From positions 1 to 46,843 of IMG/VR virus record IMGVR_UViG_3300032323_001373: a stretch of 46,843 bases of DNA. The stretch is one strand, 5' to 3'. This stretch comes from a virus. A model generated the notes under the pieces. That model did no database searches. It was not told where the DNA came from and saw nothing but the letters and a program-made list of their open reading frames with translations. The position numbers and the translations under genes are program-made. Shown here one piece after another: positions 2,717 to 46,824 of the stretch. Numbering within the stretch: position 1 is the first letter of the stretch; each line of letters opens with the position of its first letter.

Positions 2717-2724
2717 GATAAATA
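2717..2724 (+). promoter_or_regulatory. T4-type late promoter octamer
   Basis: GATAAATA on the plus strand, then five bases and ATG (2730). The T4 late consensus is TATAAATA. At the usual -10 position, transcription would begin at the A of the ATG. Confidence 0.5.
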
Positions 2725-2729
2725 ACTGC

Positions 2730-3374: not shown

Positions 3375-3395
3375 GTCAGTTCCTAGTTATATGCG

Positions 3396-3403
3396 TATTT
3401 ATT
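3396..3403 (-). promoter_or_regulatory. T4-type late promoter octamer
   Basis: AATAAATA on the minus strand, 21 bases before the ATG at 3374. The predicted start site leaves a short leader that contains AGGA, unlike the leaderless cases elsewhere. Confidence 0.4.
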
Positions 3404-4894: not shown

Positions 4895-4897
4895 CCA

Positions 4898-8601: not shown

Positions 8602-8607
8602 ACATAC

Positions 8608-8636
8608 AGTATACTATCTGTATAAGACTTTGTCAA
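8608..8636 (-). promoter_or_regulatory. Consensus sigma70 promoter for the primase
   Basis: TTGACA, 17 bases, TATACT on the minus strand. The six bases GTATGT separate the -10 from the ATG at 8601, placing +1 on the A of the start codon. The -35 lies within the last codons of the upstream gene. Confidence 0.8.
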
Positions 8637-16937: not shown

Positions 16938-16939
16938 TG

Positions 16940-21256: not shown

Positions 21257-22430
21257 TATTTTGTCCTCTTTGTTCTGATGGCTTTATATCACCTAGATAG
21301 ATCACACAAGGATGGCTGCTAACCCAATCTTTAGTCAATTGATTAGTTGGCGGATATAAGTTATTGCTTACTAACAGTTTAACACTTTCTTTCTCTTTGA
21401 ACAACCACTTTGCAGGCTTAAATTCAAAAATTAAAATTCTGCCCGTTTCAACTTTGCCGCCAACTCTGTTGGTTTTAATCCATTCGTTTATGCCGGTATC
21501 TTGTTCTTTAGGCTCTCTAAAACATACTTTAATCTCATCGCGGTCAATACCAGCTGCATCAGTATCATTGATAAAGTTTATTAACCAATCTAACGTATTA
21601 CTCGTGCGGTCTAATATAATGCAAACACGACCGGTAACGCTAGTACATAAATTTAAAAATTCAGTATTGTTTTTAATCCAAAAACTGTTTGAGTCAGATG
21701 CAGCAATTTTTTCTATCATAGTATAAGGTTTACCTGAATATTGATATCCCATACTTTTTGCCAACAACAGATCGTTATCTATCAATCCCGATGAGTGAGT
21801 TTTGAACCATTCGTCGGTTTCTGCGCTGCTGTTGCCTAACACTACCCAATTAGCTACAACACTGCTGAATGGTAATACCTCTTCCTGATTTTGCCAAATT
21901 TCTTCAACTTCTGCTAACGCAATCATGAAAGTGTCGTCAATCTCAAATTTATGTTTTAATGCAAATTCGTATAACTGAATTAAGTTAGCATCATAGACTG
22001 ACAGTTGTCGCAACTTTCTTTCTGGATCCCATATAGATTTATTAGCTGTGCTTCTTTGGTCTTCAAATTCTTCATCAAACTCTCTTTTCAGCTGATATGG
22101 AAATTTTATACAGACCTGTACTGTGCCTGTGGTATCTTTTTCTACAAAGATTTTCTTAGATAGATCTAGTATTCTAAAAGAGGTACGCCACTGCGGATTT
22201 TGCAAAGCATCAGTATAATCCAAGCTAGATTTTTTCAATGAAGATTGATATTTTGACAGCAATTTTAGTATAAAATTAGCTTGATTTTGTGTGAGCTCTT
22301 TACCTTGGATGATCACAGAATAGAAACTCGAACATGCCGCGTAGTCCTGAGGCTGCAATACTATTTGATCTATCGTTGCAAGATCATAAAATTGTAGAAA
22401 AATGTCTTCGACATATTGAGATGGTAGCAT
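21243..22430 (-). CDS. Unknown protein, co-transcribed with uvsW
   Basis: A 395-residue protein of no family I can name with confidence. The N-terminal half contains KFPYQLKREFDEEF, then WDPERKLRQLSVYD and a helical stretch, which faintly recalls the HARP domain found beside annealing helicases. The C-terminal half has GRVCIILDRTSNTLDWLINF, KPAKWLFKE, NNLYPPTNQLTKDWV and SHPCVIYLGDIKPSEQRG, and looks like a RecA-like second domain without the usual motifs. It overlaps uvsW by 14 bases. A UvsW partner or DNA-binding subunit is a reasonable guess. Its promoter predicts a leaderless transcript. Confidence 0.55.
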   Translation of the reverse strand: MLPSQYVEDIFLQFYDLATIDQIVLQPQDYAACSSFYSVIIQGKELTQNQANFILKLLSKYQSSLKKSSLDYTDALQNPQWRTSFRILDLSKKIFVEKDTTGTVQVCIKFPYQLKREFDEEFEDQRSTANKSIWDPERKLRQLSVYDANLIQLYEFALKHKFEIDDTFMIALAEVEEIWQNQEEVLPFSSVVANWVVLGNSSAETDEWFKTHSSGLIDNDLLLAKSMGYQYSGKPYTMIEKIAASDSNSFWIKNNTEFLNLCTSVTGRVCIILDRTSNTLDWLINFINDTDAAGIDRDEIKVCFREPKEQDTGINEWIKTNRVGGKVETGRILIFEFKPAKWLFKEKESVKLLVSNNLYPPTNQLTKDWVSSHPCVIYLGDIKPSEQRGQNIVEL

Positions 22431-22436
22431 ATTTCA

Positions 22437-22465
22437 AGTATAGCACCTAAAAAAGTGAAAGTCAA
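22437..22465 (-). promoter_or_regulatory. Sigma70-type promoter for the uvsW unit
   Basis: TTGACT, 17 bases, TATACT on the minus strand. Six bases (TGAAAT) separate the -10 from the ATG at 22430, placing +1 on the start codon, as for the primase. Confidence 0.75.
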
Positions 22466-30261: not shown

Positions 30262-31022
30262 TTTCTTTCTATATCCTCTTCAATACACTGTTCTCCGTAT
30301 TGTATTTCTACAATTTTAACAGGGACGTCGAACGGGTTGGTTAGTTGATGCCAATCGGCTACCGGTACTTTGTACTCTTCATGTTTGTTTAAAGTTTTTG
30401 CCGGCAACTGATATCCGCCAGCCATACTACTATTGACTACAGCAATACCTTCACTAACAATCCAATATTCTGCACGTAGCTTATGGCGTTGCATACTTAG
30501 ACTTTTGCCGGGATTGACTGTGAGTTCTTTAACTTTCATGCCTGGAACTTCGTGTAAGACGCGATAATAACCCCATTGCCGTTCTGTTTTTGGGGCTTTC
30601 CATTCTTGTAGAATCCACGAACTAGAATTTTTCTTATCTTCTCCGCCAACTCCAAAGACAAATTCTAAGTTGCTGTCTTGAATATCCATTTCTGGAATAT
30701 TTGTAGGAGTTCTATCACCGCCGTTTGCAAAGATGATCATATCGTCCGGAAACTGTTTTCTAACTTCTAGTATAGCGTCTTTGGATGAGCCGTCGGCATC
30801 ATTAAAATCATAAACAATACCGTCTACACATTTAATATTGTCTACGATATCTGCTCGTTCTTTGTGAGGCAAAAAAGGAGACCCTTTCTTGCGGGTCAAC
30901 CATGCATCTGAGTTAATTCCTACAAGGAGTATATCTCCCAATGCCTTTGCAGCTTTGAAATAGGCTATATGTCCGGAGTGTATAGGATCAAATCCGCCAG
31001 TAACTAATACAATTGTTTTCAT
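30258..31022 (-). CDS. Nucleotidyltransferase-cupin fusion
   Basis: A 254-residue fusion. Residues 1-140 are an HxGH cytidylyl/adenylyltransferase (GGFDPIHSGH at 9-18; GGDR at 101-104), like the HldE/RfaE second domain that makes ADP-heptose. Residues 148-250 are a cupin (MQRHKLRAEYWIVSEG, then VPVADWHQLTNP) like the isomerase domain of ManC/AlgA. The enzyme may activate a sugar phosphate and isomerise or bind it. The ATG at 31022 is chosen over one 18 bases upstream because the late octamer lies exactly five bases before it. Confidence 0.75.
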   Translation of the reverse strand: MKTIVLVTGGFDPIHSGHIAYFKAAKALGDILLVGINSDAWLTRKKGSPFLPHKERADIVDNIKCVDGIVYDFNDADGSSKDAILEVRKQFPDDMIIFANGGDRTPTNIPEMDIQDSNLEFVFGVGGEDKKNSSSWILQEWKAPKTERQWGYYRVLHEVPGMKVKELTVNPGKSLSMQRHKLRAEYWIVSEGIAVVNSSMAGGYQLPAKTLNKHEEYKVPVADWHQLTNPFDVPVKIVEIQYGEQCIEEDIERK

Positions 31023-31040
31023 GCAGATATTTATCTGCAT
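31021..31040. promoter_or_regulatory. Palindrome containing a late promoter octamer
   Basis: A perfect 20-base palindrome-with-loop, ATGCAGAT on each side of ATTT/AAAT. On the minus strand it contains GATAAATA (31028-31035), five bases before the ATG at 31022. It may be a promoter with an overlapping operator or hairpin. Confidence 0.5.
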
Positions 31041-31054
31041 ACATTATTGGTGAT

Positions 31055-31510
31055 TTAAAGTGTGGCGTCTTCGAGTCCGGCTGTGCGAAGTTTGACAATA
31101 TTTGAAACCTGCCATTGTTTGATATCAAGTGCTTTAATAATACCTAACCACTTGTTTCTTAACAACGCAAAGTCATTGATAATTTTTTCAAAATCAACAA
31201 CATCGGCTTCGCCTTCTACAAACTTCTCACAATCTCTAGAGCTCAATGCTCTCTGATAATTTTCAAGATATTTGCGGAAGTGGCTGCTACGCAATCTGCG
31301 AAGCTCGATGTTGAGATATTCTAATATACCTTCAATTTCTTGTAACTGGTTAAATCGGTTTTCAACAATACCCGGCATATTTGCCGAGATCTTTTCTAAA
31401 CTACCGGATACCTTACAATCAAACTTTGCTTGAAGTAGCTCAGCTTCGTAATAGGCCACAGCATCGGGAATATTACTGATATCCTTTGAAACTTTATCGT
31501 ACCAGTTCAT
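31055..31510 (-). CDS. uvsY: Recombination mediator UvsY
   Basis: A 151-residue helical protein matching cyanophage-type UvsY in LRRLRSSHFRKYLENYQRAL, DCEKFVEGEADVVDFEK, LLRNKWLGIIKALDIKQWQ and the end KLRTAGLEDATL. UvsY (137 residues in T4) loads UvsX onto gp32-coated single strands. It starts in an ATGA overlap with the 81-residue gene, and uvsX and gp32 lie just upstream, so the whole recombination set is contiguous. Confidence 0.88.
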   Translation of the reverse strand: MNWYDKVSKDISNIPDAVAYYEAELLQAKFDCKVSGSLEKISANMPGIVENRFNQLQEIEGILEYLNIELRRLRSSHFRKYLENYQRALSSRDCEKFVEGEADVVDFEKIINDFALLRNKWLGIIKALDIKQWQVSNIVKLRTAGLEDATL

Positions 31511-31752
31511 TCGTCCTCTTCTTCGTAGCCATCGTAGCTGTCGTATTCTTCTTCAATTGCTTCGCCGTCGATGGCATATTCGATAGCTTGATCTAGATAA
31601 GGGTCGATACCCTGTAAACTATCTAGAATCGAATCCTTAATACCATGATCAACTAAAGTATTAATAAAGTCTGCGGCAACATCTTTCCTTGCTTTTTCTG
31701 GAATATGTTCTACCATTGAGGTCCAAAGGTCTGCAATTAAATCTTCTTTCAT
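31507..31752 (-). CDS. Hypothetical acidic protein between uvsX and uvsY
   Basis: An 81-residue protein with a helical N-terminal half (LWTSMVEHIPEKARKDVAADF) and a very acidic C-terminus (EEEYDSYDGYEEEDE). It overlaps uvsX and uvsY by four bases each. The acidic tail could mimic DNA or contact basic faces of the recombination proteins. No family is recognised. Confidence 0.6.
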   Translation of the reverse strand: MKEDLIADLWTSMVEHIPEKARKDVAADFINTLVDHGIKDSILDSLQGIDPYLDQAIEYAIDGEAIEEEYDSYDGYEEEDE

Positions 31753-32828
31753 TCTACGCTCTCCGTTTCAGGTTCAACAGTAGTAGTTATCCCAGATTCA
31801 GTTTTTTCACCATGTTTAGAAATATCTTCCATTGCCTTATCGAGGCCTTGATTTTCGTTTCGTTCCCACGCTTTGCGGAATTGCTTGATGATTTCTCCGT
31901 CAGCAGTTGTGTATACTAGGCTGTTACCTTCTTTCTTAAGCATACCTTTGGCTTCGAACAAGTCGACCAGTCCACTATATGGATTCATACCTGTTTCATA
32001 AGGAATCTTAACCTGTACACTCTCAAACGGTTTAGCATAACGTGTCTTCATTACCTTACATGCAGCACGAATACCTTTTACCTCAGAGATTTTATTGCCG
32101 TCTTCATCTTCTTTAAGTTTGAGTTTACGCATAGCAACTACTATACTTGACGCATAGATAAAGCCTTGACCGCCACTGATCTTGTCATCTGGATCAAACA
32201 TATCCTGACTTGCGTATGTGTGATTAGTACATACCATACCGATATTATATGCTCCGAACATGTTAACGCAGTTACGAACAAGTGCTGTTAGTGCCTTAGG
32301 CTTACGACCCATATCACCTTTCATATCACCTGCTTGGAACTGATTAACGTCAGTAGGAGTTAATAGCATACCTAAGCTGTCGACAATAAACAATACTTTT
32401 GGACGATCAGTTTCATCCATTGTTTTATATTCTGCAATGAACTCAACAATAGTTTTTGCTACATCGTCGATCATTGCCATATTAAGTTTTAACAACTTGT
32501 CTGGACTTGTATCGACTCCTAATGCTTCTAACCATTTTTCGTCAAGTGCGTTTTCTGTATCAATTAAGATAGGATAAATGCCTTGTGCCTGTGCATTCTT
32601 AACTAGATTGCCTGAACAAATAAAAGATTTGCCTGCACCCGATTCTCCAGCGAATACTGTTACTTTGCCTAGCGGAATACCTTTGTTGAAATCGCCACTG
32701 ATAAGATAGTTTAATGCGAAGTTGTTGGTACTGACCCAATCGGTCGGATCATTAAAGCCAATACTAAGACCTTCAATGCTCTTAGTAATTGACTTTCTAA
32801 ATTTAGAAATATCAAATGCTTTTGCCAT
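31749..32828 (-). CDS. uvsX: RecA-like recombinase UvsX
   Basis: A 359-residue RecA-fold protein. Walker A is GESGAGKS (61-68), Walker B is VLFIVDSLGML (about residues 145-155), and SGGQGFIYASS lies in the DNA-binding loop region. Length is close to T4 UvsX (391), with a short Glu-rich C-terminal tail. It forms the presynaptic filament with UvsY and gp32. AGGG nine bases before the ATG provides ribosome binding. It follows the gp32 terminator and so may be read through or have its own start. Confidence 0.93.
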   Translation of the reverse strand: MAKAFDISKFRKSITKSIEGLSIGFNDPTDWVSTNNFALNYLISGDFNKGIPLGKVTVFAGESGAGKSFICSGNLVKNAQAQGIYPILIDTENALDEKWLEALGVDTSPDKLLKLNMAMIDDVAKTIVEFIAEYKTMDETDRPKVLFIVDSLGMLLTPTDVNQFQAGDMKGDMGRKPKALTALVRNCVNMFGAYNIGMVCTNHTYASQDMFDPDDKISGGQGFIYASSIVVAMRKLKLKEDEDGNKISEVKGIRAACKVMKTRYAKPFESVQVKIPYETGMNPYSGLVDLFEAKGMLKKEGNSLVYTTADGEIIKQFRKAWERNENQGLDKAMEDISKHGEKTESGITTTVEPETESVE

Positions 32829-32849
32829 ATTATTTTGCCCTATTGAGAA

Positions 32850-32875
32850 AAGAGTGTGAGTTGCCCCACACTCTT
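32850..32875 (-). terminator. Intrinsic terminator after gp32
   Basis: On the minus strand AAGAGTGTG, an eight-base loop, CACACTCTT, then TTCTC. It separates gp32 from uvsX; partial read-through is likely because the T run is short. Confidence 0.6.
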
Positions 32876-32884
32876 ATATTAGTC

Positions 32885-33865
32885 TTACTGCTTTTGACGA
32901 TTGCGAATCATGGCTAAGATATCTTGAGCCTTGCTTGCGCCATCAGTGCTTGCAGGTGCTGCCGCTGTTGCAGGTGCACTTGCTACTGGTGCTGGTTCGT
33001 CATCGACTTGGTCATCAACTCGAGCCGGAGCACTTACTGCCGCTGGTTTATTAGGATCGCCTGTCGCTGAACCTAAGCCTGCTGGCTTGAAGTATTGACC
33101 CCAACGTTCCAAGTCATATGCTTCGCCGTCAACTGATGCTTCAAACATTTCCTTCATAACTTTCAACTCAACGTCTGTTGGTTTCTTAGGAAGGAAGTCG
33201 TTTAAGTTAAACAGGCCGTGACTGTCAATTGCTGCTTTCTCAATATCAGTTAGAGCACGTTCACGACGTGACCATTTAGAAGTAGAGTAGTCAGCAAAGC
33301 CACCTTTTGATGTCTTGGCGATACGGAAGTCGAGACCTTTTAAGTAGTCTGTTGGCAACTCATCTAACTCTGGATCCATTAGAGCTGAACGGATGATTTG
33401 ATAGATTTGAGGACCAATGATAAATCTACGAATTGGATTCTCCGGAATTTTATCTTCACGGATTGGATCTTCAACTACGAAGCCCTGGAAAATATATGAA
33501 CGTTTCTTCCAATACTTACGACCCATTTCTTCTAGTGATTTGTCTTTGAACCAACCACGAACTTCTGACAAGATCGGACATGCTGTACCATCGTTGTACA
33601 TTTCCACACATGGAACTTGTACTTGTACTGGACGTGAATCTGTTTCACCTTTAATACCAGCAAATGGTAGTTTGATCATTGCACGTTCTACCCAAAAGAA
33701 TGTGTTATTTGGATTACCATCAGGAAGTAAACGGATAACCGCTTCTTTGCCTTCTTGCATATTCCAGTGTGGGTAAATTGCGTTGTCGCCGCCGCCTGTT
33801 GATTGTCCTGTGGACTTTGATTGTGCTTCTTGAAGTTTCGCACGAATTTCTGCTAATGATGCCAT
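32885..33865 (-). CDS. 32: Single-strand DNA-binding protein gp32
   Basis: A 326-residue protein with the T4 gp32 layout: a short basic N-terminus (SLAEIRAKLQEAQSKS), a core with HWNMQEGKEAVIRLLPDG, the Cys-rich VPCVEMYNDGTACPIL region (zinc site), GRKYWKKRSYIFQGFV, and an Ala/Pro/Asp-rich tail ending ILAMIRNRQ. It coats single-stranded DNA in replication and recombination. The tail is less acidic than in T4. AGGAGG precedes the ATG by ten bases, and a long leader with both sigma70-type and late-type elements suggests continuous expression. Confidence 0.93.
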   Translation of the reverse strand: MASLAEIRAKLQEAQSKSTGQSTGGGDNAIYPHWNMQEGKEAVIRLLPDGNPNNTFFWVERAMIKLPFAGIKGETDSRPVQVQVPCVEMYNDGTACPILSEVRGWFKDKSLEEMGRKYWKKRSYIFQGFVVEDPIREDKIPENPIRRFIIGPQIYQIIRSALMDPELDELPTDYLKGLDFRIAKTSKGGFADYSTSKWSRRERALTDIEKAAIDSHGLFNLNDFLPKKPTDVELKVMKEMFEASVDGEAYDLERWGQYFKPAGLGSATGDPNKPAAVSAPARVDDQVDDEPAPVASAPATAAAPASTDGASKAQDILAMIRNRQKQ

Positions 33866-33924
33866 TTTATAATGCCTCCTATGTTATGCCTTAAAATGTT
33901 TTTATGCCTTGTACGCATAGTATT

Positions 33925-33953
33925 ATTATGCGCTTTTTATTTATCAAGGTCAA
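33925..33953 (-). promoter_or_regulatory. Composite promoter for gp32
   Basis: TTGACC, 17 bases, CATAAT on the minus strand, with the late-type octamer GATAAATA (33938-33945) inside the spacer. The leader is about 53 bases and holds AGGAGG. Confidence 0.55.
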
Positions 33954-33992
33954 CGATTATCTGCTAATATTTTGATTTCGTTTTACCAAAAG

Positions 33993-34013
33993 AAAAAGCG
34001 GGTCAGGCCCACT
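33993..34013 (-). terminator. Intrinsic terminator
   Basis: On the minus strand AGTGGG, five-base loop, CCCGCT (one G-T pair), then TTTTTC. It overlaps the last codons of the small frame ending at 34003. Confidence 0.6.
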
Positions 34014-34179
34014 TTTCCTTATACTTTGCTAATGCTAATTGTCTAGCTAACCATAATCTAAACTTTACATATTCTGATAAATCATCTACTATCTTACCAA
34101 ATTCGCGAGCCTTTAGATTACGACCAAGTGTGACTTCATCGTCTAGAATGAAGTCACTGTCATCTAATCCGAAATTACT
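34003..34179 (-). CDS. Small open frame without a clear start
   Basis: At least 58 residues that look like a genuine protein (GLDDSDFILDDEVTLGRNL, EYVKFRLWLARQLALAKYKE). The frame continues upstream to an ATG at 34326 through a region that clearly codes for the 61-residue protein in another frame. Between 34003 and 34179 there is no in-frame ATG, GTG or TTG. The start given here is only the point where the neighbouring gene ends. The real start may be a rare codon, a +1 frameshift from the upstream gene, or the sequence may carry an error. Confidence 0.5.
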   Translation of the reverse strand, partial: SNFGLDDSDFILDDEVTLGRNLKAREFGKIVDDLSEYVKFRLWLARQLALAKYKEKWA

Positions 34180-34360
34180 TCGCTGGAGTAGCGGCTTTTG
34201 CGTCTGCTTTAGCTGGCTCTTTCTTAGCAGGTTCGCTTTTTGCAGGCTTTTTCTCTTCCTTCTTAACTTCTGCCTTAGCTGGAGCTGCCGGAGCTGCCGG
34301 TGTTTGGGCAAATACAGTTGCGGCAAACATTGTTGCGATTAAAGTTGCGATTAATTTCAT
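34175..34360 (-). CDS. Small secreted Ala/Lys/Pro-rich protein
   Basis: A 61-residue protein with a clean signal peptide (MKLIATLIATMFAATVFA, cleavage likely after FA-QT). It is followed by a low-complexity tail of Ala, Pro, Lys and Glu (PAAPAAPAKAE, KKEEKKPAK). AAGGA six bases before the ATG is a good ribosome binding site. Such small tailed exported proteins are common in betaproteobacteria, and this one may come from the host. It would act in the periplasm; function unknown. The stop codon lies within the next small frame. Confidence 0.65.
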   Translation of the reverse strand: MKLIATLIATMFAATVFAQTPAAPAAPAKAEVKKEEKKPAKSEPAKKEPAKADAKAATPAK

Positions 34361-34446
34361 GGTATTTCCTTTTAGGTTATGTAAGAATTTCTATCCCTAC
34401 ATATATATAACGCTTTAGAGGCACATTCTGTTGACAGACAATTTGC

Positions 34447-34472
34447 CCAAAAGAAAGGGCACCTAAGTGCCC
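34447..34472 (-). terminator. Intrinsic terminator after the 658-residue gene
   Basis: On the minus strand GGGCAC, four-base loop TTAG, GTGCCC, then TTTCTTTT. It ends the packaging transcript before the gp32 side. The remaining bases up to 34360 hold the leader of the small secreted protein. Confidence 0.75.
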
Positions 34473-34493
34473 GATCTTAACTGCGACGAAATC

Positions 34494-36470
34494 TTAATAC
34501 TGTACTAATTCTTTGATTCTTGACAATTCTGCCAATTCTGGATTTTGTTCTGTGGTTTGTTGTGGAGCCATTCTTTCTACAAATTGACGAGCCACTGATT
34601 CTGCCTGTTCGCCAAACTTCTTGCCTACCATTACGCAAACGCCTTCTGGTCCTTTAGGGAATGTGCCTGACTCACGATCATAAAATGAATTAATAAATTC
34701 TGCCAATTCTTTAGTGTTCATTTTTTCTGATTTTCTACGAGCAAGATCACTTGCGTGTGTTACTTTACCACGAGGATCTTTACCTTGTGACTTTTCCCAG
34801 TCACCTTCGTGTGACCAAGATTTAACATTGCCGTCTTTGTCTTTTTCTACTTTATCTATAGCTTCGTCTTTTTCGCCTCGATTTTTTGCTAGTCTATCTG
34901 GATGGCTGATGTTCTTTGTTCTTTCTTTTTCTAGGTCATCATGTGAAACTTTCCAATCTTTGTCGCCTGACTGTTGTCTCTTATATGCAGGTATATCACT
35001 CTTATTGACATCTTCTTGTGGCAGTTCTTCGCCTTCTGGTTGTTCCATACCTTGTTCTGCATCTGCAGGTTCTTCGACATAGTCACCAAAGTCTAATTGT
35101 TCTAGTGCCTCTGGAGCATTCTGTTCCAACCAATCCTTGACCAAGCCACGTGTGCATGAATCTGGATCTTCTTTGGCCTGTGCTTTGATTGCTTGATTCA
35201 GTTGAGGATCTTCAATAATGCCTTTTAGGCTTTCGATGGCATTTGAACCATCTACTCCTGCTGAGAAATGTTGTCCTACTAATTCTTGTAGTTGTTGTAA
35301 TGCTGCTTTTTGTTCTTCTGGATCTGAACTTTGTATTGCAGACTCTTCTCCGAGCCCCATAGCCCAATCTTCAAAACGTGCAAATGGATCTTCATATGTA
35401 TCAATCTCTACGTCTTCGTTGGCCAGTTCATCTTGTTGTGTCATAGCGACTATGTCGTCATAGCCTATGGTATTACCTTCTTGCATTAATCTATATAAAA
35501 CAGGAAATACACTAGCGATATCTTCTTTAAAGTTTTTAACTGTGAATTTTTCTGTGAAATCTTCTACTACGTCTTGAGGTACTTCCATTGGACTCTGTGC
35601 CTGGAATGATTCTCTGTATGCCTCATAGTGACTTTGTTTTGCTAATTTTGAAATAGTTTCGCGTAGGCTGTTTAGTTGATCGGAACTGCGTTCTACAATG
35701 CCATTAGTGTCGGAGTTCATTAGGTCATTGCGAACTACATAGTTACCAAAGCTCTTGAGTTGAGCAATTTCTTCGCTCATTCTAATAATGCTTTCACCAA
35801 TCTCATCGTATGGTTTTCCACCATTGGCTACGTGACGTTGCATTGCACGAGCACCACTTAAATGAATGAAAGGATATTTAAATCGTTCACCATCTTGGTT
35901 TTCAACAAATAAGCCTGCAATGTTGCGGCTTCTTGCACCAGGCGCCATATCATCTGCTAATGCTTGACTGTGTTTAATAATCAAACGTGTGTTTTCTAAT
36001 TTCTGATAGCTAACGGTTTTTGTACCGTATAGATTGCTTTCACTCATAATACTTTCTCCGACAGGGGTTTGTACTGCTGTATTCGTTGTTGGTTTTGAAG
36101 ACTGGCTTAAGAAAGCATAATCTCTCTTGTCTAGATTATCTTTAGCGATATCTCTAGTGTCAAAACTTAATAGTCTACGTTTAGCGAACATACGCAATTC
36201 TTTTAAAAATCCATACCATTTAGATTTCTGCGGAGCATCCATGCTTTCTGTGATTCCACTGCTGAAATACACTTTCATAGAATTGTGCTCTGCTAGGCTA
36301 ATACTAACGTGCCCGATCGGCTGTTCGCCTTCCATATAATCAAAATCAAAGAAGCGTGCCTCCTCTGGATTGATAGTAATTTCGCCTGTTTCTGCGCCTA
36401 ATTTTAGGCCTGTGAATCGGCTGCGAATTTTATAAAATAAATCTGTTGCGATATTGTTTCTTGCGTCCAT
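34494..36470 (-). CDS. Large virion-associated protein, unknown
   Basis: A 658-residue protein. Residues 1-140 are alpha/beta with a KWYGFLKELRMFAKRRLL helix. The middle (about 150-400) is helical. Residues 430-600 are very rich in charged residues (EEPADAEQGMEQPEGEEL, KDKDGNVKSWSHEGDW). Its place directly after gp17, with a late-type octamer five bases before the ATG, points to a structural or maturation role. No T4 counterpart is recognised. The ATG at 36470 is chosen over a TTG at 36485 because the octamer overlaps that reading. Confidence 0.6.
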   Translation of the reverse strand: MDARNNIATDLFYKIRSRFTGLKLGAETGEITINPEEARFFDFDYMEGEQPIGHVSISLAEHNSMKVYFSSGITESMDAPQKSKWYGFLKELRMFAKRRLLSFDTRDIAKDNLDKRDYAFLSQSSKPTTNTAVQTPVGESIMSESNLYGTKTVSYQKLENTRLIIKHSQALADDMAPGARSRNIAGLFVENQDGERFKYPFIHLSGARAMQRHVANGGKPYDEIGESIIRMSEEIAQLKSFGNYVVRNDLMNSDTNGIVERSSDQLNSLRETISKLAKQSHYEAYRESFQAQSPMEVPQDVVEDFTEKFTVKNFKEDIASVFPVLYRLMQEGNTIGYDDIVAMTQQDELANEDVEIDTYEDPFARFEDWAMGLGEESAIQSSDPEEQKAALQQLQELVGQHFSAGVDGSNAIESLKGIIEDPQLNQAIKAQAKEDPDSCTRGLVKDWLEQNAPEALEQLDFGDYVEEPADAEQGMEQPEGEELPQEDVNKSDIPAYKRQQSGDKDWKVSHDDLEKERTKNISHPDRLAKNRGEKDEAIDKVEKDKDGNVKSWSHEGDWEKSQGKDPRGKVTHASDLARRKSEKMNTKELAEFINSFYDRESGTFPKGPEGVCVMVGKKFGEQAESVARQFVERMAPQQTTEQNPELAELSRIKELVQY

Positions 36471-36475
36471 AAGTG

Positions 36476-36483
36476 TATTTATC
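36476..36483 (-). promoter_or_regulatory. T4-type late promoter octamer
   Basis: GATAAATA on the minus strand, five bases (CACTT) before the ATG at 36470. It overlaps the gp17 stop codon. Confidence 0.55.
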
Positions 36484-38068
36484 AATATCCTGTGCTAATG
36501 AAGATTGGCATGGGTAGCTGTTCTTCGCTGAGTCTTTCTGACATCTTTTCATAGATCTTAGGATCCCAGTCGCTGAGTACGCTGGCCATACGCAGGATCA
36601 ATAGAGTTGATGATACTAAGTCATCGTGTTCTCCGGTTTTAGCACCAAACCCTACACCGTGTGCTACATAGGTTTTTAATTCAGAAATCAGAGGTTTAGA
36701 GTTAATTTTCATGCGGCCTGTTTCTAATAGATTTTTTAACTGGCTACAGGTAGATATTTTAGTGCGGTGTGTGGTATTAAAACCTTTGCGGAATTTACGT
36801 ATATGCCCTCTACGAATAGGCTCACTGAGGAACAGGCCGTTAAAATTCTCTTCTCCTAGGTCACTGATAACTATCAGTGCTGCTTCTCCTAGGGTGTTAT
36901 TTTCTACTGAATAATAGATCTGCGGCACTCCGCCTTTTTCTACTCCTCTATCATTGATATATCTACAGATTTCTCTAAGATGCTTGACCTGGGACTGGAT
37001 CGGAGTCAGGTTATGGTGCCATTCTGCTACCTGTTCCATACTAGGCATTTCGTATACCTGTATAGCACCGTAGTCGCCGCCTGTACCTAAGCTGGGATCG
37101 AGTGCTATTAGATATGTGCAACGAGGATCGATATCTTTGTACCAGCGTGTTTGCCCCATGGTCATTGTTGGGTCAACACCTTTCATTTCTGCTAACCGTA
37201 CTGCATTGATCAGTGTTTCATCGAATATCAAGAATTCGCAATCAAATTCTCTGCGGAATCGTTCATCACCAATCTTGCTGCGCTCAACCTTAGCCCACTC
37301 TTCGTCGCGGTCTGGATGTTCGGCCCAGTGTGCAAAGAAACTATAAAATCCGTTAGACCCTAGTTTTTGTTCATTGCCAAATTCGTCAAACTTTTTATTG
37401 GCTTCAGTCCAAATTAACGCAAACTGATCCTCGTCTGAGTTAGGTGTTGAAGTAATAATACACTTACCACCTGTTGATAGTGTTGGACTTAGTGCAGTCC
37501 AGAATTCTTTGGCTTTTTCTGGAGGCTGCACAAACGCAAACTCATCACAATAAATTAATGAAAGAGATTTACCACGACCGGTGTTTTCTGTAGTTGTCAC
37601 CGCTTGAATCCGTGCTCCGTTATCGTATTCAATTGTATTTCTATTATATGAATAAACACCAGCACGAATAAAGTCTGGCAAGTTTTCGTAACCAAAACGG
37701 TAACGATTCATAATATCCTGAGCACCTTCGTATTTGTGAGCAGCGATTAGTACTTGAGATTCTGGTACAAACATTGTGTACCATAATAGATACGCACACG
37801 CACATGTAGTCTTACCCATCTGGCGCGGCAACATAGCGATACATTGTTTGTTATTATGATAGGAGTCAATTAATCTTTCCTGATATTCATAAGGAACAAA
37901 AGGAATGGAGCCTCGAGTTGGGTGTTGTATTTTTAAGAAATTCTTGGCAAAGTAAATAGGCCCAGTTACAGGATCCATACATGCTTCAAGATGCTTGACT
38001 TCCTCTAATGTATATCGCTGAGGAGCATGGGCTTTCTTAATTAAATTACCGTCTAATGATTTTGCCAT
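36482..38068 (-). CDS. 17: Terminase large subunit gp17
   Basis: A 528-residue packaging motor and nuclease. The ATPase domain has the Walker A-like PRQMGKTT (81-88), Walker B LIYCDEFAFV (171-180) and coupling motif ITSTPN (205-210). The RNase H-like nuclease has Asp324 (IALDPS), the YSVENN segment (386-391) and Asp482/Asp483 (HDDLVSS). It cuts concatemers and pumps DNA into proheads with gp16. Its ATG follows a terminator and a late-type octamer with no ribosome binding site in between. Confidence 0.95.
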   Translation of the reverse strand: MAKSLDGNLIKKAHAPQRYTLEEVKHLEACMDPVTGPIYFAKNFLKIQHPTRGSIPFVPYEYQERLIDSYHNNKQCIAMLPRQMGKTTCACAYLLWYTMFVPESQVLIAAHKYEGAQDIMNRYRFGYENLPDFIRAGVYSYNRNTIEYDNGARIQAVTTTENTGRGKSLSLIYCDEFAFVQPPEKAKEFWTALSPTLSTGGKCIITSTPNSDEDQFALIWTEANKKFDEFGNEQKLGSNGFYSFFAHWAEHPDRDEEWAKVERSKIGDERFRREFDCEFLIFDETLINAVRLAEMKGVDPTMTMGQTRWYKDIDPRCTYLIALDPSLGTGGDYGAIQVYEMPSMEQVAEWHHNLTPIQSQVKHLREICRYINDRGVEKGGVPQIYYSVENNTLGEAALIVISDLGEENFNGLFLSEPIRRGHIRKFRKGFNTTHRTKISTCSQLKNLLETGRMKINSKPLISELKTYVAHGVGFGAKTGEHDDLVSSTLLILRMASVLSDWDPKIYEKMSERLSEEQLPMPIFISTGY

Positions 38069-38073
38069 ACTGT

Positions 38074-38081
38074 TATTTACT
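38074..38081 (-). promoter_or_regulatory. T4-type late promoter octamer before gp17
   Basis: AGTAAATA on the minus strand, then ACAGT and the ATG at 38068. It begins right after the T run of the preceding terminator, so the transcript would have no room for a leader. Confidence 0.55.
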
Positions 38082-38110
38082 GAAAAAAATAGGCTCCGAA
38101 GAGCCTATTT
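38082..38110 (-). terminator. Strong intrinsic terminator before gp17
   Basis: A 10-bp stem (AAATAGGCTC paired with GAGCCTATTT) with a TTCG loop on the minus strand, then a run of seven T. It ends the upstream structural transcript. Confidence 0.9.
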
Positions 38111-38127
38111 GGTTAGTTAGTTTTATA

Positions 38128-38790
38128 TTAACTATCGATTGTTTCTGCTGCATCAACTAATGTTACTGCAACATCGTCATAGATATCTGCAATAGTTTCA
38201 GGTGCTGCGATTGTGATAGTTTCATCAATTTCAGCTGCCTGAGCTCCGTCCCATACACGTACTCGCTTAGTCATTGCTAAAAGCATTGCTTGTCCGATCA
38301 AATAACGCAGTGCCCTAGCTGTTGTATTAATAGTAATTGCAGCACCTGTTGTCGGTGCAAACGAAGCAACACCTAAACCTATGCCGCCTGTTGAGCTTGC
38401 AGCACTTGCTGAGTTCGTTACAGTTGTTAGTATGTTTGAGGCAGCAGCAGCGCCAGCACGATCGTATCTAATTGTAAATGTAACTGTTTGAGGTTGATTA
38501 TCAGCTGCAGTTGCTCCTGCGCTGGTAAATTGAACATCTAAAATTTGAGCATCGGCAAATCTTGATACTGCATCAACAATGTTCATAAAGCGTAAATGCC
38601 CTCTAGCTACACGACGACCAATTGCTAATGTAGTTGGCTTAGTAGCAAATTGACTGTGATCCTGAGGATATACAGCACCGTTATTTGTGCCATCAGCTGT
38701 AGGATATGATCCTGTACCGCCGCTTAGTGTTAAGACCACTTGATAAAATTCTGGTCTTAATGATTCGGTTGAAATTTTAAATCCTGACAT
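38128..38790 (-). CDS. Probable virion protein, unknown
   Basis: A 220-residue protein rich in Ala, Thr, Ser and Gly with beta-forming repeats (TVTFTIRYDRAGAAA, GAAITINTTARALRYL). The composition is that of a capsid decoration or fibre-like protein. AAAGGAG before the ATG and a TAATG overlap with the upstream gene place it in the gp16-to-scaffold operon. It is the last gene before the strong terminator. Family not recognised. Confidence 0.6.
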   Translation of the reverse strand: MSGFKISTESLRPEFYQVVLTLSGGTGSYPTADGTNNGAVYPQDHSQFATKPTTLAIGRRVARGHLRFMNIVDAVSRFADAQILDVQFTSAGATAADNQPQTVTFTIRYDRAGAAAASNILTTVTNSASAASSTGGIGLGVASFAPTTGAAITINTTARALRYLIGQAMLLAMTKRVRVWDGAQAAEIDETITIAAPETIADIYDDVAVTLVDAAETIDS

Positions 38791-39485
38791 TATTTCGCTC
38801 CTTTAGCTTCTGCTAATCTTTGTAATAACTCTGCACGAATATTAGCACGTAGGGTTTCTTTACTTTCATAAGCGCCTGCAGCCATTGGGTTATCTCCACG
38901 ATACGCTTTGCCGCTGAAACTTTTCTTAGGTCTATTTAAGTCGTTACCATTTGGTAGATTAGCACTAATATCTTTGTAGTCTGGTTCGCTGTCGCCTACA
39001 GAATTGCCAAATGCTTCTTCTTTGTCTTTTTCTTTTTCTTGCTGGTCATCAAAAGGTTTTAATTCTTTATTAAGATGAGTCATGATATCGTCGTCATCTT
39101 CACCTTCAGGTTCAGCAGCTTCTTTTTCTTTTGGCTCTTCTTTGTCTAAGTCAGGTAACATTTTTAATGGCGGAAGGCTAGGAGCGATTGATGTGATACT
39201 CGGTTCAGTACTCATTGGTGATGTTGGAGCATCTTTTTGATTGATCATATCTGGATTAACTTTAGTTAACAGCTTCATCAACTCGCCAATGTCATCCATG
39301 CCCTGTGCATTAATGTTTACACTCATGCTCGGCGGAGGAGTATCTGGTTTTGAATCCATACCCATCGGTGCCGGCGGCATATCGCCACACGCTTCGACCG
39401 GTGCGTCTTGCACAGGTGCTTGAATAGTTTCAGGCACAGGCTGATCCAGTTCTCTCATTTTCGCCATCAAATCATTAAAGTTCAT
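38790..39485 (-). CDS. Acidic Pro-rich protein, scaffold-like
   Basis: A 231-residue, largely disordered protein: Pro/Met-rich to about residue 120, then acidic (EEPKEKEAAEPEGEDDDD). The last 40 residues (ESKETLRANIRAELLQRLAEAKG) form one predicted helix. Short terminal helices and low complexity are common in scaffold or assembly proteins, so a head-assembly role is plausible. GGGAG five bases before the ATG supports the start. Confidence 0.55.
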   Translation of the reverse strand: MNFNDLMAKMRELDQPVPETIQAPVQDAPVEACGDMPPAPMGMDSKPDTPPPSMSVNINAQGMDDIGELMKLLTKVNPDMINQKDAPTSPMSTEPSITSIAPSLPPLKMLPDLDKEEPKEKEAAEPEGEDDDDIMTHLNKELKPFDDQQEKEKDKEEAFGNSVGDSEPDYKDISANLPNGNDLNRPKKSFSGKAYRGDNPMAAGAYESKETLRANIRAELLQRLAEAKGAK

Positions 39486-39486
39486 A

Positions 39487-40050
39487 TTAACTCCCTACGG
39501 CGCTTTTGGCACCTTCCTTGTCTTGTTTATGTTTAGGCAGTTTATATTCACCTTGCCCGTTTTCTTTTTTTCTTTCTTTAGCAGTTTTTGCTAAATCTTT
39601 CAAAAATCCCTTGTTGAAATCATCACCGAAATAATCTTTGTGTTTGATTTTACCAGCGTCTTTGTACTGCCCATCTGCTAACAGTGCTTCACCGCTAGGT
39701 TCAGCAGCAGCTAAAACCTGTTCTTGTTCGCTAGGTTCATTTGATCCACGAACACGGAAACAACTTTCTGGCAATCCAGTTTCTTTAATACTGACCACGA
39801 TTTCCGGAGCAGTAATTGGGTACTCACAGATGACTTCAAAAATACTCACAGTAGTATTTGGATGATCTGGAAAATCCAAAGGTAGTGCTTGGATTGGTGT
39901 TGTTTTAACTTTTTCAAAAGTCATAACACCGCACCGATCTAATTTTTCTTTTAGATTCTTTTCAAAATTCTCAGGCAACTCGCCAGCGATTTTAATCTTA
40001 AAGTCATAGACTTTTTTGTTTTCAACAAGATATTCTTTAAATGTCTTCAT
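39487..40050 (-). CDS. Hypothetical 187-residue protein
   Basis: Starts MKTFKEYLVENKK, a leader type seen on several head-associated proteins of T4-like phages. The first 100 residues are alpha/beta (ITAPEIVVSIKETG); the rest is charged and helical with GDDFNKGFLKDLAKTAKERKK. The ATG follows the octamer ACTAAATA by five bases, part of which is the gp16 stop codon, and no ribosome binding site is seen. Function unknown. Confidence 0.55.
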   Translation of the reverse strand: MKTFKEYLVENKKVYDFKIKIAGELPENFEKNLKEKLDRCGVMTFEKVKTTPIQALPLDFPDHPNTTVSIFEVICEYPITAPEIVVSIKETGLPESCFRVRGSNEPSEQEQVLAAAEPSGEALLADGQYKDAGKIKHKDYFGDDFNKGFLKDLAKTAKERKKENGQGEYKLPKHKQDKEGAKSAVGS

Positions 40051-40055
40051 AGTAG

Positions 40056-40063
40056 TATTTAGT
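40056..40063 (-). promoter_or_regulatory. Possible late promoter octamer
   Basis: ACTAAATA on the minus strand, five bases (CTACT) before the ATG at 40050. It overlaps the gp16 stop codon. Confidence 0.4.
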
Positions 40064-40544
40064 CCTTTTGACCCAATTTCTTAAGTAGTTCGTTGCGATC
40101 AGTAATCACATAGCCCTGTCCATTAATAACATCGTTAGGGTCTGCACCAGAATCGTTGTCAATTTTTAATTTTTTAAGCTGTAAATCTACAGCTTTAAGC
40201 TTCTTATCGATCTTAGCTGTCTTAGCAGCAATAGCGTTTCCCATCATACTAGAAGCAACTTCAAAAATCCTGCCGCTGTAACGAACTTCTACGTTCATAC
40301 CTAGATCCATAAGATCATCATAGGCCTGCTCTGCTTTAGTAGCTAGATGATCTAGTTCTTTGTCGTCTAGTTCGTTTAGTTCCTGTATCTGTGGTAATCC
40401 TCTAGTGATTTCCTGTACAGCCTGTATTTGTTTTTCTAGGGTGTCTATTTCCTGATGTGTAGGAGGCTCGATAGGAGCGATTTCTTCCACAACTTCTGGC
40501 TTGGACTCTTCTAGATTAAACAGATCTTCTAATTTTTTCGTCAT
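40059..40544 (-). CDS. 16: Terminase small subunit gp16-like
   Basis: A 161-residue helical protein. It has an acidic N-terminus, a central coiled helix pair (EVRYSGRIFEVASSMMGNAIAAKTAKIDKKLKAV region) and the C-terminal VITDRNELLKKLG, which matches the gp16 layout and length (164 in T4). gp16 forms the ring that feeds DNA to gp17 at packaging start. gp17 lies four genes downstream, gp4 directly upstream. Confidence 0.78.
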   Translation of the reverse strand: MTKKLEDLFNLEESKPEVVEEIAPIEPPTHQEIDTLEKQIQAVQEITRGLPQIQELNELDDKELDHLATKAEQAYDDLMDLGMNVEVRYSGRIFEVASSMMGNAIAAKTAKIDKKLKAVDLQLKKLKIDNDSGADPNDVINGQGYVITDRNELLKKLGQKD

Positions 40545-40551
40545 ACTATAC

Positions 40552-40992
40552 TTATTTCCGTTTGCCGCCTTGGTGGAAAATTTCGCCTTCGTTAATCACA
40601 CGAAATCGCAGGCCTTGTTGTTTACACCAAGCGTTGGCAGCTTCCCATTTTGCCATATTTTTTACATACTGCTGTTGATTGTATTGGCTCTTACCTACTT
40701 TTTCCAGCACTGTTTGACTTTCAGGTTTAACTTCTACGACCTCAGCGTGTTTCCCACCTTTTTTATCGTTATAAACGATAAAGAAGTCTGGAACATAAAT
40801 GGTATACTTGCCTGTTAACGGATCTCTATACGGTATCTGTATACTTTCGCTAGCCCATTTTTCAACACCCTGATGTTCGTCAAGCATCCGCATAAAAACA
40901 AATTCCCATGAGCTGCGAGCCAGTGGTGTTTTCTTCCCTACATACTTATCGGGGTTTTTCATTTCGAATCGACCCTGTGCAAATTTGGCCAT
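40552..40992 (-). CDS. 4: Head-completion nuclease gp4
   Basis: A 146-residue protein with PD-(D/E)xK nuclease residues: Arg26-Ser-Ser-Trp-Glu30, Pro68-Asp69 (VPDFF) and Glu87-Val-Lys89. T4 gp4 joins gp2 and gp50/65 in completing filled heads. The PYRDPLTGKYTIYVPDFF stretch is characteristic. The ATG overlaps the preceding stop by one base (TAATG). Confidence 0.88.
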   Translation of the reverse strand: MAKFAQGRFEMKNPDKYVGKKTPLARSSWEFVFMRMLDEHQGVEKWASESIQIPYRDPLTGKYTIYVPDFFIVYNDKKGGKHAEVVEVKPESQTVLEKVGKSQYNQQQYVKNMAKWEAANAWCKQQGLRFRVINEGEIFHQGGKRK

Positions 40993-41360
40993 TATGCTGC
41001 GATGTTTCTAGATTGTGTGACCTTGACGTCGGGCGTTCTAAATCCCAAAGTGCTGGTAGGGCTTCTGTTGTTGTTTAAGATTTCACCAACTACTTGACTT
41101 AGACCTAACCCGTCAAATTGTGAAAGACCTTGTAGAATTTGATATATAGGAGTTCCATCTAATTTAGCCTGCTTCAACAGCACAGTTGAAACTGTTAGTG
41201 CTGCATCTTTTTCAAAGCCGTTGTTTTCAAAAAAACTAACAGTGCTGTTAACATCATTGGCATTAAATTCCAGCGGCTCTTCACCGTAGGTACTGAAAAA
41301 TAATTTTGTTCCTGCGGCACTGTCTTCAACAGCAATTGACGGTAAATTTGTATTTGCCAT
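40992..41360 (-). CDS. Hypothetical structural-block protein
   Basis: A 122-residue protein starting MANTNLPSIAVED. It contains SFFENNGFEKDAALTVSTVLLKQAKLDGTPIYQIL, a predicted helix bundle, and TSTLGFRTPDV near the end. Placed between the gp54-like gene and gp4 in the late block, it is probably a baseplate or neck accessory. The ATG at 41360 is preferred to a GTG 15 bases upstream; AGGTGG precedes it. No family is recognised. Confidence 0.55.
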   Translation of the reverse strand: MANTNLPSIAVEDSAAGTKLFFSTYGEEPLEFNANDVNSTVSFFENNGFEKDAALTVSTVLLKQAKLDGTPIYQILQGLSQFDGLGLSQVVGEILNNNRSPTSTLGFRTPDVKVTQSRNIAA

Positions 41361-41361
41361 A

Positions 41362-42444
41362 TTACTGTGTCCCACCTACCAAAGATTTTGGTAAAGCCTG
41401 TGTAGTTTGTGTATTTGTGGAACTCTTGGGAAATACTGCCCCCACTACTCCGCCTACAGTACTTACTGCTGTGGAGATATTAGTTGGGTTACTTAAAATA
41501 TTAATCGCTTCTTGTTTAAGTCCTTCTTTACTGAGGCCTTTTAAATTTTTATAGGTGTTAACAGTTTTAATAGCAGTACCTAAGAATCCTCCAAAACTTT
41601 CAAACGTAGAACCATTAGCTACATCACCAAAGATGCTTTCTAGACCATCTAATACTCCGCCCGGACCAGTCAAGTTAGAAACTCCACCACCTGCCACTGA
41701 CAGTGGGCTTGGTACTAGGTCGTAGTGCAAGGTAGCAAATCCTTTGGGATTATTAATTGACACATTACCTGCAGAATATTTCACTGCTTCATATTCAAGA
41801 GTCATTGTACTTTCTGATGGTTCGTTGGCTGCATAATCCATAGAGCCGTGATTCCATGATTTGATTCTTGGATTAATCAATGTGTATCCTAAAAATCTTT
41901 TTCGACTCATGGTATAGATACTAACGGATTTAAAAAATCCCACTGAGATATTGTTGTCCATGCCGTAACGGAAATTATCCAGTGGCGTTTTAGTTGGACG
42001 ATATTTGTTATCGTTGTAGGCGGCTACTGGGTTTTGTCTATCAGTAACATAATAGCCATAATAGATAGCCCACAGTGCGTTTACAATTCCGGCGTTATCA
42101 TCATGTAACGTGATACTTACTGGTTCGTAATTAAAGTTTTTGTAAACAATTCTTTTTCTATTGTATTGATTTTTTACAACACTATCAAAACTATACTTAG
42201 GTAATTCAGCAGTCTTGACTAGCATGCCCACTTCGTCGCCGTGACGAGCAGTGAATGATGGTGCTTTGTGTGCAGTCTTGTCTATTTCAAATCTAACATA
42301 ATAGTTAAATTTTGTACGAGGTGATAATCGATAGGTGTCGTCGACAAACAATCGAGTGGCATGCTGCCAGTTACCTACTAGTCCTTTAGGATTAGTAAGT
42401 CCGGTACCAACACCATTGAGAAAACGTGTAAATTTATTGGCCAT
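41362..42444 (-). CDS. Tail-tube-fold protein (gp54/gp19-like)
   Basis: A 360-residue protein. Residues 40-230 show the T4 gp19-type tube fold (VRFEID, LVKTAELPKYSFDSVVKN, YEPVSITLHDD, LGYTLINPRIKSW, STMTLEYEAVKY). The C-terminal third is Gly/Ser-rich. Size and place next to the tube gene suggest the baseplate tube initiator gp54 (320 in T4) or gp48 (364). It starts five bases after CATAAATA, just past a terminator, with no ribosome binding site. Confidence 0.6.
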   Translation of the reverse strand: MANKFTRFLNGVGTGLTNPKGLVGNWQHATRLFVDDTYRLSPRTKFNYYVRFEIDKTAHKAPSFTARHGDEVGMLVKTAELPKYSFDSVVKNQYNRKRIVYKNFNYEPVSITLHDDNAGIVNALWAIYYGYYVTDRQNPVAAYNDNKYRPTKTPLDNFRYGMDNNISVGFFKSVSIYTMSRKRFLGYTLINPRIKSWNHGSMDYAANEPSESTMTLEYEAVKYSAGNVSINNPKGFATLHYDLVPSPLSVAGGGVSNLTGPGGVLDGLESIFGDVANGSTFESFGGFLGTAIKTVNTYKNLKGLSKEGLKQEAINILSNPTNISTAVSTVGGVVGAVFPKSSTNTQTTQALPKSLVGGTQ

Positions 42445-42449
42445 ACTAA

Positions 42450-42457
42450 TATTTATG
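42450..42457 (-). promoter_or_regulatory. T4-type late promoter octamer
   Basis: CATAAATA on the minus strand, then TTAGT and the ATG at 42444. It begins four bases after the T run of the preceding terminator. Confidence 0.6.
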
Positions 42458-42461
42458 TCAC

Positions 42462-42485
42462 AAAAAAACCCGAACTAATCGGGTT
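42462..42485 (-). terminator. Intrinsic terminator after gp19
   Basis: AACCCGA, five-base loop, TCGGGTT on the minus strand, followed by TTTTT. It ends the gp18-gp19 transcript. Confidence 0.88.
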
Positions 42486-42507
42486 CTTTTGATACTGATA
42501 ATAATTA

Positions 42508-46100: not shown

Positions 46101-46673
46101 GCCTGTGGCACCGAACGAAGTTTTTGGAACTCCGCCAGTAATATTATCTACATCATCATCTGTTAGTACATGTGGAATCTTAGTTGTGAACTTTTGTCCG
46201 CCAACTGCTGTGGCTGCAGAACCGTTCCATTCTTGGATACCCCAAGCTGTAGAACGTGTATCTAACCACCATTGTCCATCATTTGGTAATGCTCCCGGGG
46301 CTGATGCTGATGCTTCTAATTCGGTTAAATCTACGTCAGCCCTAACAATAAATGCTGCGTTGGATACTCCTAGCAAACTGTAAGCTGCTAGTAGTCCGTA
46401 TTCGTTTCGTTCGCCGCCATGTACTGGATTTGAACTTGCTGTCTTTTCAAAGAAAGGTACACCATAAAAATCTACTAGATCTTTCTGGCTTGTCATCTTA
46501 AATGCTTTTCCAGCATTTGCTTTAGTTGTTGCAGTGGCAATACCTGTGCCTGCTGCATTTGTCTTATCTTGTCCTGTGGCTACAACGATAAGGGGTGTTG
46601 TGCCTGGCTCGGCAGGTGTATACTGACTCTCGTCGATTACCGTAACTTGTACGCCTGGTGATTGAAGTGCCAT
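43155..46673 (-). CDS. 18: Tail sheath protein gp18, greatly enlarged
   Basis: A 1172-residue sheath protein; T4 gp18 has 659. The N-terminal start (MALQSPGVQVTVID, then PLIVVATGQDKTN) and the C-terminal 300 residues (FNLIACPGYPEL, FFNGVGLINFGQKTRA, RLTVYLRSQLNKLARPYIFEPND, IEPVKAVEFIYIPLRV) are typical. Between residues about 125 and 850 lies an insertion with repeated short beta units of the type GQLWYNS...NGNTWVGY. A TTG lies upstream in frame, but the ATG at 46673 with AGGAGA nine bases before it fits better. The leader from the late octamer is about 30 bases. Confidence 0.9.
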   Translation of the reverse strand: MALQSPGVQVTVIDESQYTPAEPGTTPLIVVATGQDKTNAAGTGIATATTKANAGKAFKMTSQKDLVDFYGVPFFEKTASSNPVHGGERNEYGLLAAYSLLGVSNAAFIVRADVDLTELEASASAPGALPNDGQWWLDTRSTAWGIQEWNGSAATAVGGQKFTTKIPHVLTDDDVDNITGGVPKTSFGATGDYAVVFETVDGSGTFSASKEYARIYYKSPGNGNIAGGGTAVSSGAWVLVGSQEWAASWPTIKGATSVAATITGNFTINGTTVTVAGAPNNTLDGVVNTINGLNINGVTARSVNNRLYLYGDADAMGGGDLAGNEGDSSLTNAITLASGTLDVSATFGITAGTYHGPRLVQTPHTSVPAFKIGDNDDDGTGTLANGRPTGSVWIKTTEPNSGARWIAKKWNSATETWVTANAPIYASGHAALYYLDRSGGGANIAANELYVQTNALEDSRYDSSPETATFRVWKRAISANARTKITSQAITATEVGNGNLAWTLKQSIPGSATLVSKTITFTTTTTTGVSNSPREIADAINAIVNFGFDNSDPANPVEIPSYVEASVTVDNELVIEHSQGGEIRFAASGASLTALSTLFAPFNIDTLTGTANFYQLSASSAENYVASGWQPLAANDFLAASSAPSNDPSDGQLWYNSAVNEIDIMVHNGNTWVGYLDEFAATSATGPKVSASNPYTGGVTFVNNDLWISTADLENFPTIYRYNSNIQGVPASEKWELVDKTDQTTEAGILFADARWGKTGATGNTAATIQALLSSNYLDPDAPDPALYPKGMLLWNTRRSDGNVKRYEVNYVDQTKDNERYDSTNSPLGNAVVTAESMTGYTEKNRWVTASPNNEDGSGTFLRKAQRSVVVAALKSAVDTSQEIRDEERRNFNLIACPGYPELMSNLVNLNIDRGVTAFVIADTPLRLPSDATSLTNYGSNAELVVDNNDNGIVTYDEYLAVFYPSGFTTDLGGSNAVVPSTHMMLKTIALSDNASYPWFAPAGTRRGGITNATSVGYIDGATGEFQTVALNEGQRDTLYDQKINPITFFNGVGLINFGQKTRARNASALDRINVARLTVYLRSQLNKLARPYIFEPNDKITRDEIKQACESLLLELVGLRALYDFAVVCDETNNTAARVDRNELWVDIAIEPVKAVEFIYIPLRVKNTGEI

Positions 46674-46708
46674 GTTCCCTATTCTCCTGGTAATAGTTTT
46701 GCTCAATG

Positions 46709-46716
46709 TATTTAGC
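46709..46716 (-). promoter_or_regulatory. T4-type late promoter octamer for gp18
   Basis: GCTAAATA on the minus strand. The predicted start site near 46703 gives a leader of about 30 bases with AGGAGA, so gp18 is translated in the ordinary way. Confidence 0.55.
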
Positions 46717-46750: not shown

Positions 46751-46824
46751 AAAAAGGGGTCTAAAAGGTGCAGTTCTTTTAAATATGTATATGAGACCAC
46801 TGTGCAAATGCGGATTTAGACCCC
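46751..46824 (-). terminator. Long-range inverted repeat, possible terminator
   Basis: GGGGTCTAAA at 46756-46765 is perfectly matched by TTTAGACCCC at 46815-46824, with 49 bases between. On the minus strand the second arm is followed by TTTTTC, as in a terminator with a large loop. A tRNA was considered and rejected. Nothing else is seen from 46717 to the end of the window. Confidence 0.4.

Follow-up and report, generated by a model that had tools for sequence, protein, structure and literature searches.

Results

Late promoter octamers adjoin start codons in a T4-type phage fragment

The window under study is a whole viral metagenome record of 46.8 kb, a fragment of a T4-type phage. It carries homologues of gp17, gp18, gp32, UvsX and UvsY, which assign it to the T4-type, Straboviridae-like phages, together with tail tubes, a primase and a helicase. 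The closest cultured relative of its gp17 is that of PA5oct (53%), and since records related to the window reach up to 364 kb, the window phage is probably a jumbo phage. Elsewhere in the window, a 191-aa protein (9842-10417) matches the DNA polymerase family phrog_11778, which suggests a split polymerase, and a cluster at 10419-18310 containing sugar epimerases, an aminotransferase and 2OG-Fe(II) oxygenases may perhaps be involved in the modification of the host surface or of glycans.

The pattern TAAATA-N5-ATG occurs 7 times in the window and in all 7 cases it opens a gene. A preliminary description of this DNA had proposed six genes in which a T4-late-type octamer is followed by five bases and ATG; all six are in place, but the true count is seven, as the site at 46780-46785 had been missed. 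The sites, one variant with a shorter spacing and two leadered genes for contrast are the following:

38066..38081, minus strand: gp17 large terminase; octamer AGTAAATA at 38081-38074, N5 ACAGT, ATG 38068
36468..36483, minus strand: 658-aa virion structural protein; octamer GATAAATA, N5, ATG 36470
40048..40063, minus strand: 187-aa virion structural protein; octamer ACTAAATA, N5, ATG 40050
42442..42457, minus strand: 360-aa tail-tube-like protein; octamer CATAAATA, N5, ATG 42444
31020..31035, minus strand: 254-aa nucleotidyltransferase-like protein; octamer GATAAATA, N5, ATG 31022
2717..2732, plus strand: 69-aa protein; octamer GATAAATA, N5, ATG 2730
46778..46793, plus strand: seventh site, 111-aa HNH-like family; TAAATA 46780-46785, N5, ATG 46791
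4892..4906, minus strand: spacing-4 variant, 237-aa protein; TAAATA 4904-4899, ATG 4894
3372..3403, minus strand: leadered contrast; TAAATA 3401-3396, 21-nt gap containing AGGAA, ATG 3374
46671..46716, minus strand: leadered contrast, gp18 tail sheath; TAAATA 46714-46709, 35-nt gap with AGGAG, ATG 46673

These sites match the T4-type late promoter core, TAAATA with a variable base at -13; in known late promoters the first bases are likewise loosely conserved, as in T4 TATAAATA and cyanophage NATAAATA (PMC1524935, PMC2984593). Near-start octamers precede genes for gp17, tail tube, virion structural and head-tail adaptor proteins, and some non-structural genes too. The open reading frame at the seventh site, MRPLCKCGFRPRAVNYK, runs past the window end and matches a 111-aa family in which 34 of 35 sites have spacing 5. 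In the relative G006 the 69-aa gene has spacing 5 too; the spacing of four claimed for the 237-aa gene was confirmed in the sequence and recurs in G002 but not in G003. The promoter at 31022 sits in a near-perfect palindrome, ATGCAGATAAATATCTGCAT (31021-31040). The normal AGGA leaders ascribed to gp18 and to the gene at 3374 were borne out, and the spacing of the gp18 family in relatives is invariably 31-36. The absence of a ribosome binding site, claimed for all six genes, needs one amendment: 40050 has an AAGGA, but upstream of the octamer and hence upstream of the predicted +1.

The five-base spacing is enriched at gene starts and conserved in orthologues

A/T-rich strings and stop codons could by chance yield TAAATA near starts and, as the preliminary description had cautioned, TAAATA is found inside genes and some octamers overlap the stops of upstream genes. 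Because raw pattern counts are uninformative in A/T-rich genomes, we used the spacing to gene starts instead, taking as ORF-opening any ATG that begins an ORF of 60 or more codons or one open to the window end. Across 100 dinucleotide shuffles of the window the pattern occurred 1.3 times on average and 5 times at most. Of the ORF-opening ATGs, 7 have the hexamer at spacing 5, compared with 0.27 on average at each of the other spacings (Poisson P 1.7e-8), and none of the 64 A/T hexamers gives a stronger spacing-5 signal than TAAATA.

The same analysis was extended to 80 related records from viral metagenomes, found by gp17 and totalling 1.15 Mb. They contain 945 TAAATA, of which 335 are followed by an ORF-opening ATG at a distance of exactly 5 nt, 28 at 4 nt, 62 at 31 nt (mostly one within-gene position repeated across 47 records, plus gp18) and 11 or fewer at each remaining spacing. 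TAAATA at spacing 5 ranks first among all hexamer/spacing pairs, and 188 spacing-5 sites from 36 gene families are left once near-copies are removed. The comparison with shuffled sequence and relatives, which had been proposed as a check, therefore returned a strong excess at spacing 5. In four whole relatives spanning 91-364 kb (G001, G002, G003 and G006), distances from TAAATA to the start are bimodal, with groups at 4-6 and about 16-31 nt. The A/T-rich controls T4 and PA5oct show the far peak only, and the P-SSM2 set has 1 spacing-5 site among 775, which argues against chance as well.

For the orthologue test, window proteins served as queries and the sequence upstream of the aligned M1 was read, a promoter not being required. 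A near-start TAAATA was found in set-A orthologues as follows:

658-aa gene: 77/77, spacing 4-5
gp17: 72/80, spacing 4-6
187-aa gene: 63/63, spacing 5 or 7
tail-tube gene (42444): 54/54, spacing 4-5
254-aa gene: 30/33, spacing 5
gp32 and uvsX: 0/68 and 0/57, both with Shine-Dalgarno (SD) leaders

Enrichment and orthologues together refute the chance reading, to which we attach practically no probability. The spacing in set B (64% identity) is 7 at gp17 and 6 at the 187-aa gene, and certain orthologues from sets C and D retain the octamer but combine it with an SD leader about 20 nt long. The coexistence of leaderless-type and leadered modes in one genome, as first proposed, thus holds, with near and far spacing groups and orthologues in agreement. 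Ordinary SD leaders precede gp18, gp23, gp32 and uvsX. Since gp23 and gp18, which are expected to be highly expressed, and the DNA-binding gp32 are among these, the leaderless class may tentatively be assigned to lower-copy products.

Could the starts themselves be mis-assigned, so that transcription begins near the proposed ATG and translation at a later, in-frame, leadered start? Three window ORFs do offer alternative starts, the ATGs at 2730, 31022 and 36470 lying inside slightly longer frames whose first starts are 2694, 31040 and TTG 36485, but these are upstream rather than downstream, and the proposed starts are backed by orthologues. Moreover, orthologue alignments begin at the proposed M1, and the gp17 of the cultured phage Phosso, with its annotated start, matches the window protein from the latter's first residue onward, which makes mis-assignment very improbable.

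Predicted transcription starts coincide with the AUG

In T4 the late octamer occupies -13 to -6 (PMC1524935), so that a five-base spacer would place +1 on the A of the AUG. The base before the ATG is C or T in 35 of 36 families versus a 48% background (P 1e-10). Transcription start points favour pyrimidine-purine, and where the spacing differs from five, the position 5 or 6 nt past the octamer tends to be taken by an A that follows a pyrimidine: at spacing 4 that A belongs to the ATG itself, and at spacings 6-8 it lies 2-3 nt before the ATG, with predicted leaders of 2-3 nt such as AU or ACU. Set B follows this pattern less strictly at spacings 5 and 8.

SD sequences are depleted at the same sites. 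A match of 3 nt or less was found at 81% of spacing-5 sites versus 35% of leadered ones, and no spacing-5 site has an SD in set B (0/89) or set C (0/77). In set A an SD-like tetramer, usable on read-through RNA, precedes or overlaps the promoter at 32 of 151 non-redundant spacing-5 sites (about 21%).

Intrinsic terminators lie directly upstream of 55 of 183 leaderless versus 1 of 80 leadered set-A sites, and the distance from the end of the U-run to the ATG at the leaderless sites has a median of 16 and a minimum of 13 nt. Two of them are found in the window:

38087..38110, minus strand: intrinsic terminator before gp17; 10-bp stem, UUCG loop, U-run
42461..42491, minus strand: intrinsic terminator adjoining the 42444 promoter upstream; -18.3 kcal/mol, z -4.45

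The gp17 terminator ends 14 nt ahead of the ATG, an arrangement that is the same in G001, G002, G003 and G006, and the U-run of the second is at the same place in these four relatives. As both lie directly upstream of the promoters, neither gene has room for an SD leader. The claim that these mRNAs start on the A of the ATG is therefore consistent with the T4 geometry, the pyrimidine at -1, the SD depletion and terminators at least 13 nt upstream, and we infer this start point for the spacing-5 late mRNAs by carrying over the T4 +1 to phages whose gp55 is distantly related.

Alternatively, the octamers may be real late promoters whose leaderless transcripts contribute little, the genes being translated chiefly by coupling to the preceding stop codon on polycistronic read-through mRNA. 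Several octamers abut or overlap such a stop (for example the TGA of gp17, overlapped by the octamer GATAAATA before 36470), 33 of 183 short-spacing set-A sites have a stop codon directly before TAAATA, and an upstream AAGGA is available at some sites, such as 40050. On the other hand, the strong intrinsic terminators 14-17 nt before the gp17 and tail-tube ATGs are conserved in relatives, so low read-through is to be expected there, and coupling leaves unexplained both the exact 5-nt spacing and the pyrimidine at -1. We consider this explanation unlikely, although less so than mis-assigned starts.

A second class of promoters also lies at start codons

TTGAC-type promoters with a TATAAT-type -10 element were found exactly 6 nt before the ATG at 20 sites and at 5-7 nt at 28, with a second hump 25-34 nt before the ATG; near-start promoters of this sigma70 type number none in T4 and one in PA5oct. 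Two examples from the window are:

8599..8636, minus strand: DNA primase gene; TTGACA-N17-TATACT-N6-ATG, ATG 8601
22428..22465, minus strand: 395-aa protein; TTGACT-N17-TATACT-N6-ATG, ATG 22430

The primase gene has a -10 element followed by N6-ATG in G001, G002, G003 and G006, and the arrangement at the 395-aa gene is the same in G006. Since sigma70-type promoters are near-start too, leaderlessness would be a property of the genome and not of the late promoters alone, and is predicted to extend beyond late genes.

The trait is restricted to a clade of giant T4-type phages

Deduplicated spacing-5 counts were 198, 111, 81 and 107 in sets A, B, C and D, and 1 in the P-SSM2 set. In the gp17 tree, 28 of the 32 representatives that make up one clade (support 100/97) have the near-start mode. 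PA5oct, a Pseudomonas phage of the Arenbergviridae whose gp17 is related, is nested in this clade yet shows no near-start peak, and has apparently lost the mode, which is also lacking outside the clade in CBB, Vibrio 2.275.O, Atu_ph07, Phosso, T4 and P-SSM2. A single gain followed by losses is plausible but not shown; the tree needs several label changes, and rows with few sites, labelled by ratio, are uncertain (Aeromonas 31.2, for instance, is labelled from one site). A general T4 property is ruled out by T4, PA5oct, Atu_ph07, Phosso, CBB, Vibrio 2.275.O and the P-SSM2 set. The predicted placement of promoters at the AUG is thus clade-specific, within a large group of so far uncultured giant T4-type phages.

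We also considered what could favour the mode. No RegB-like nuclease, a candidate selective cause, was found in the relatives. A phage ribosomal protein bS21 is encoded in G001 (292290-292445) and G002 (33352-33510), but it was rejected as a cause, being also present in PA5oct, Phosso and Atu_ph07, all of which lack the near-start mode; IF3 was found only in Phosso and Atu_ph07. A host origin was rejected as well: among 56 genomes from the class to which one MAG with a related contig belongs, a weak link to the host, the sigma70 leaderless pattern is rare, at about 0.3 per genome. G001 and G002 each carry about 30 tRNAs and a permuted betaproteobacterial-type tmRNA (Rfam RF04321/RF01850; L114:18488-18888 and L148:4880-5318), the latter a hint to the host.

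Discussion

The late sites described here resemble the T4-type late promoter, served by gp55/gp33/gp45, in their TAAATA core, in the structural genes they precede and in the gp55-like sigma of the large relatives (phrog_12791 and phrog_234 in G001, G002 and G003, E about 1e-78 or better); the window, itself a fragment, lacks this gene. They differ in position: the octamers of T4 and of the other cultured relatives that were compared are separated from the ATG by about 15-40 nt, including an SD, whereas here the distance is 4-8 nt and there is no SD. Leaderless mRNAs are common in mycobacteria, and lambda cI is an example in a phage; the predicted 5'-terminal AUG without an SD is alike. The phage cases known to us are a few single genes, unlike the genome-wide, clade-conserved arrangement with two promoter classes found here. 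In phiKZ, late promoters have a TATG motif in which the G is +1 and are read by a multisubunit RNA polymerase of the phage (PMC4666361). phiKZ, too, is a jumbo phage, and its motif likewise overlaps the point where transcription starts, but enzyme and geometry are unrelated, and a phiKZ-type promoter was rejected on geometry: here the octamer is of T4 type and +1 would fall on an A. A search of open-licence papers on leaderless jumbo or T4-like phages found no relevant report.

We consider it highly likely, from the sequence comparisons above, that T4-type late promoters in these phages are set to make mRNAs with a 5'-terminal AUG whose translation is SD-independent, and that sigma70-type promoters do likewise. 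A gp55-like late sigma factor would read the octamers, and transcription would start on the A of the start codon at spacings 5 and 4, whereas spacings 6-8 would leave 2-3 nt ahead of the codon. The resulting 5'-AUG mRNAs would be translated by 5'-terminal-AUG initiation without Shine-Dalgarno pairing, while the same genome uses SD leaders for other genes and would rely on sigma70-type leaderless expression for some, such as the primase. The benefit may be one of gating, in which read-through RNA would be poorly translated and expression would await the activity of each gene's own promoter; a gate on translation is a reasonable inference. A broader and more doubtful proposal, which we advance tentatively, is that a broad aquatic jumbo clade has evolved expression in two modes, in which 5'-AUG mRNAs would be made with the sigma70 of the host as well as with the late sigma of the phage and the choice between leaderless and SD starts would act as the gate, perhaps with the help of ribosomes altered by the phage, given the bS21 of G001 and G002.

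In a dozen or more genes per genome, and across hundreds of environmental members, the distance from promoter to AUG is kept to the base, which makes this clade a natural test case for leaderless translation. Orthologues with SD leaders in nearby phages are natural matched pairs for the question of when, and for what reason, ribosomes start at 5'-terminal AUGs, and gene prediction programs whose scoring includes ribosome-binding sites may place such starts wrongly.
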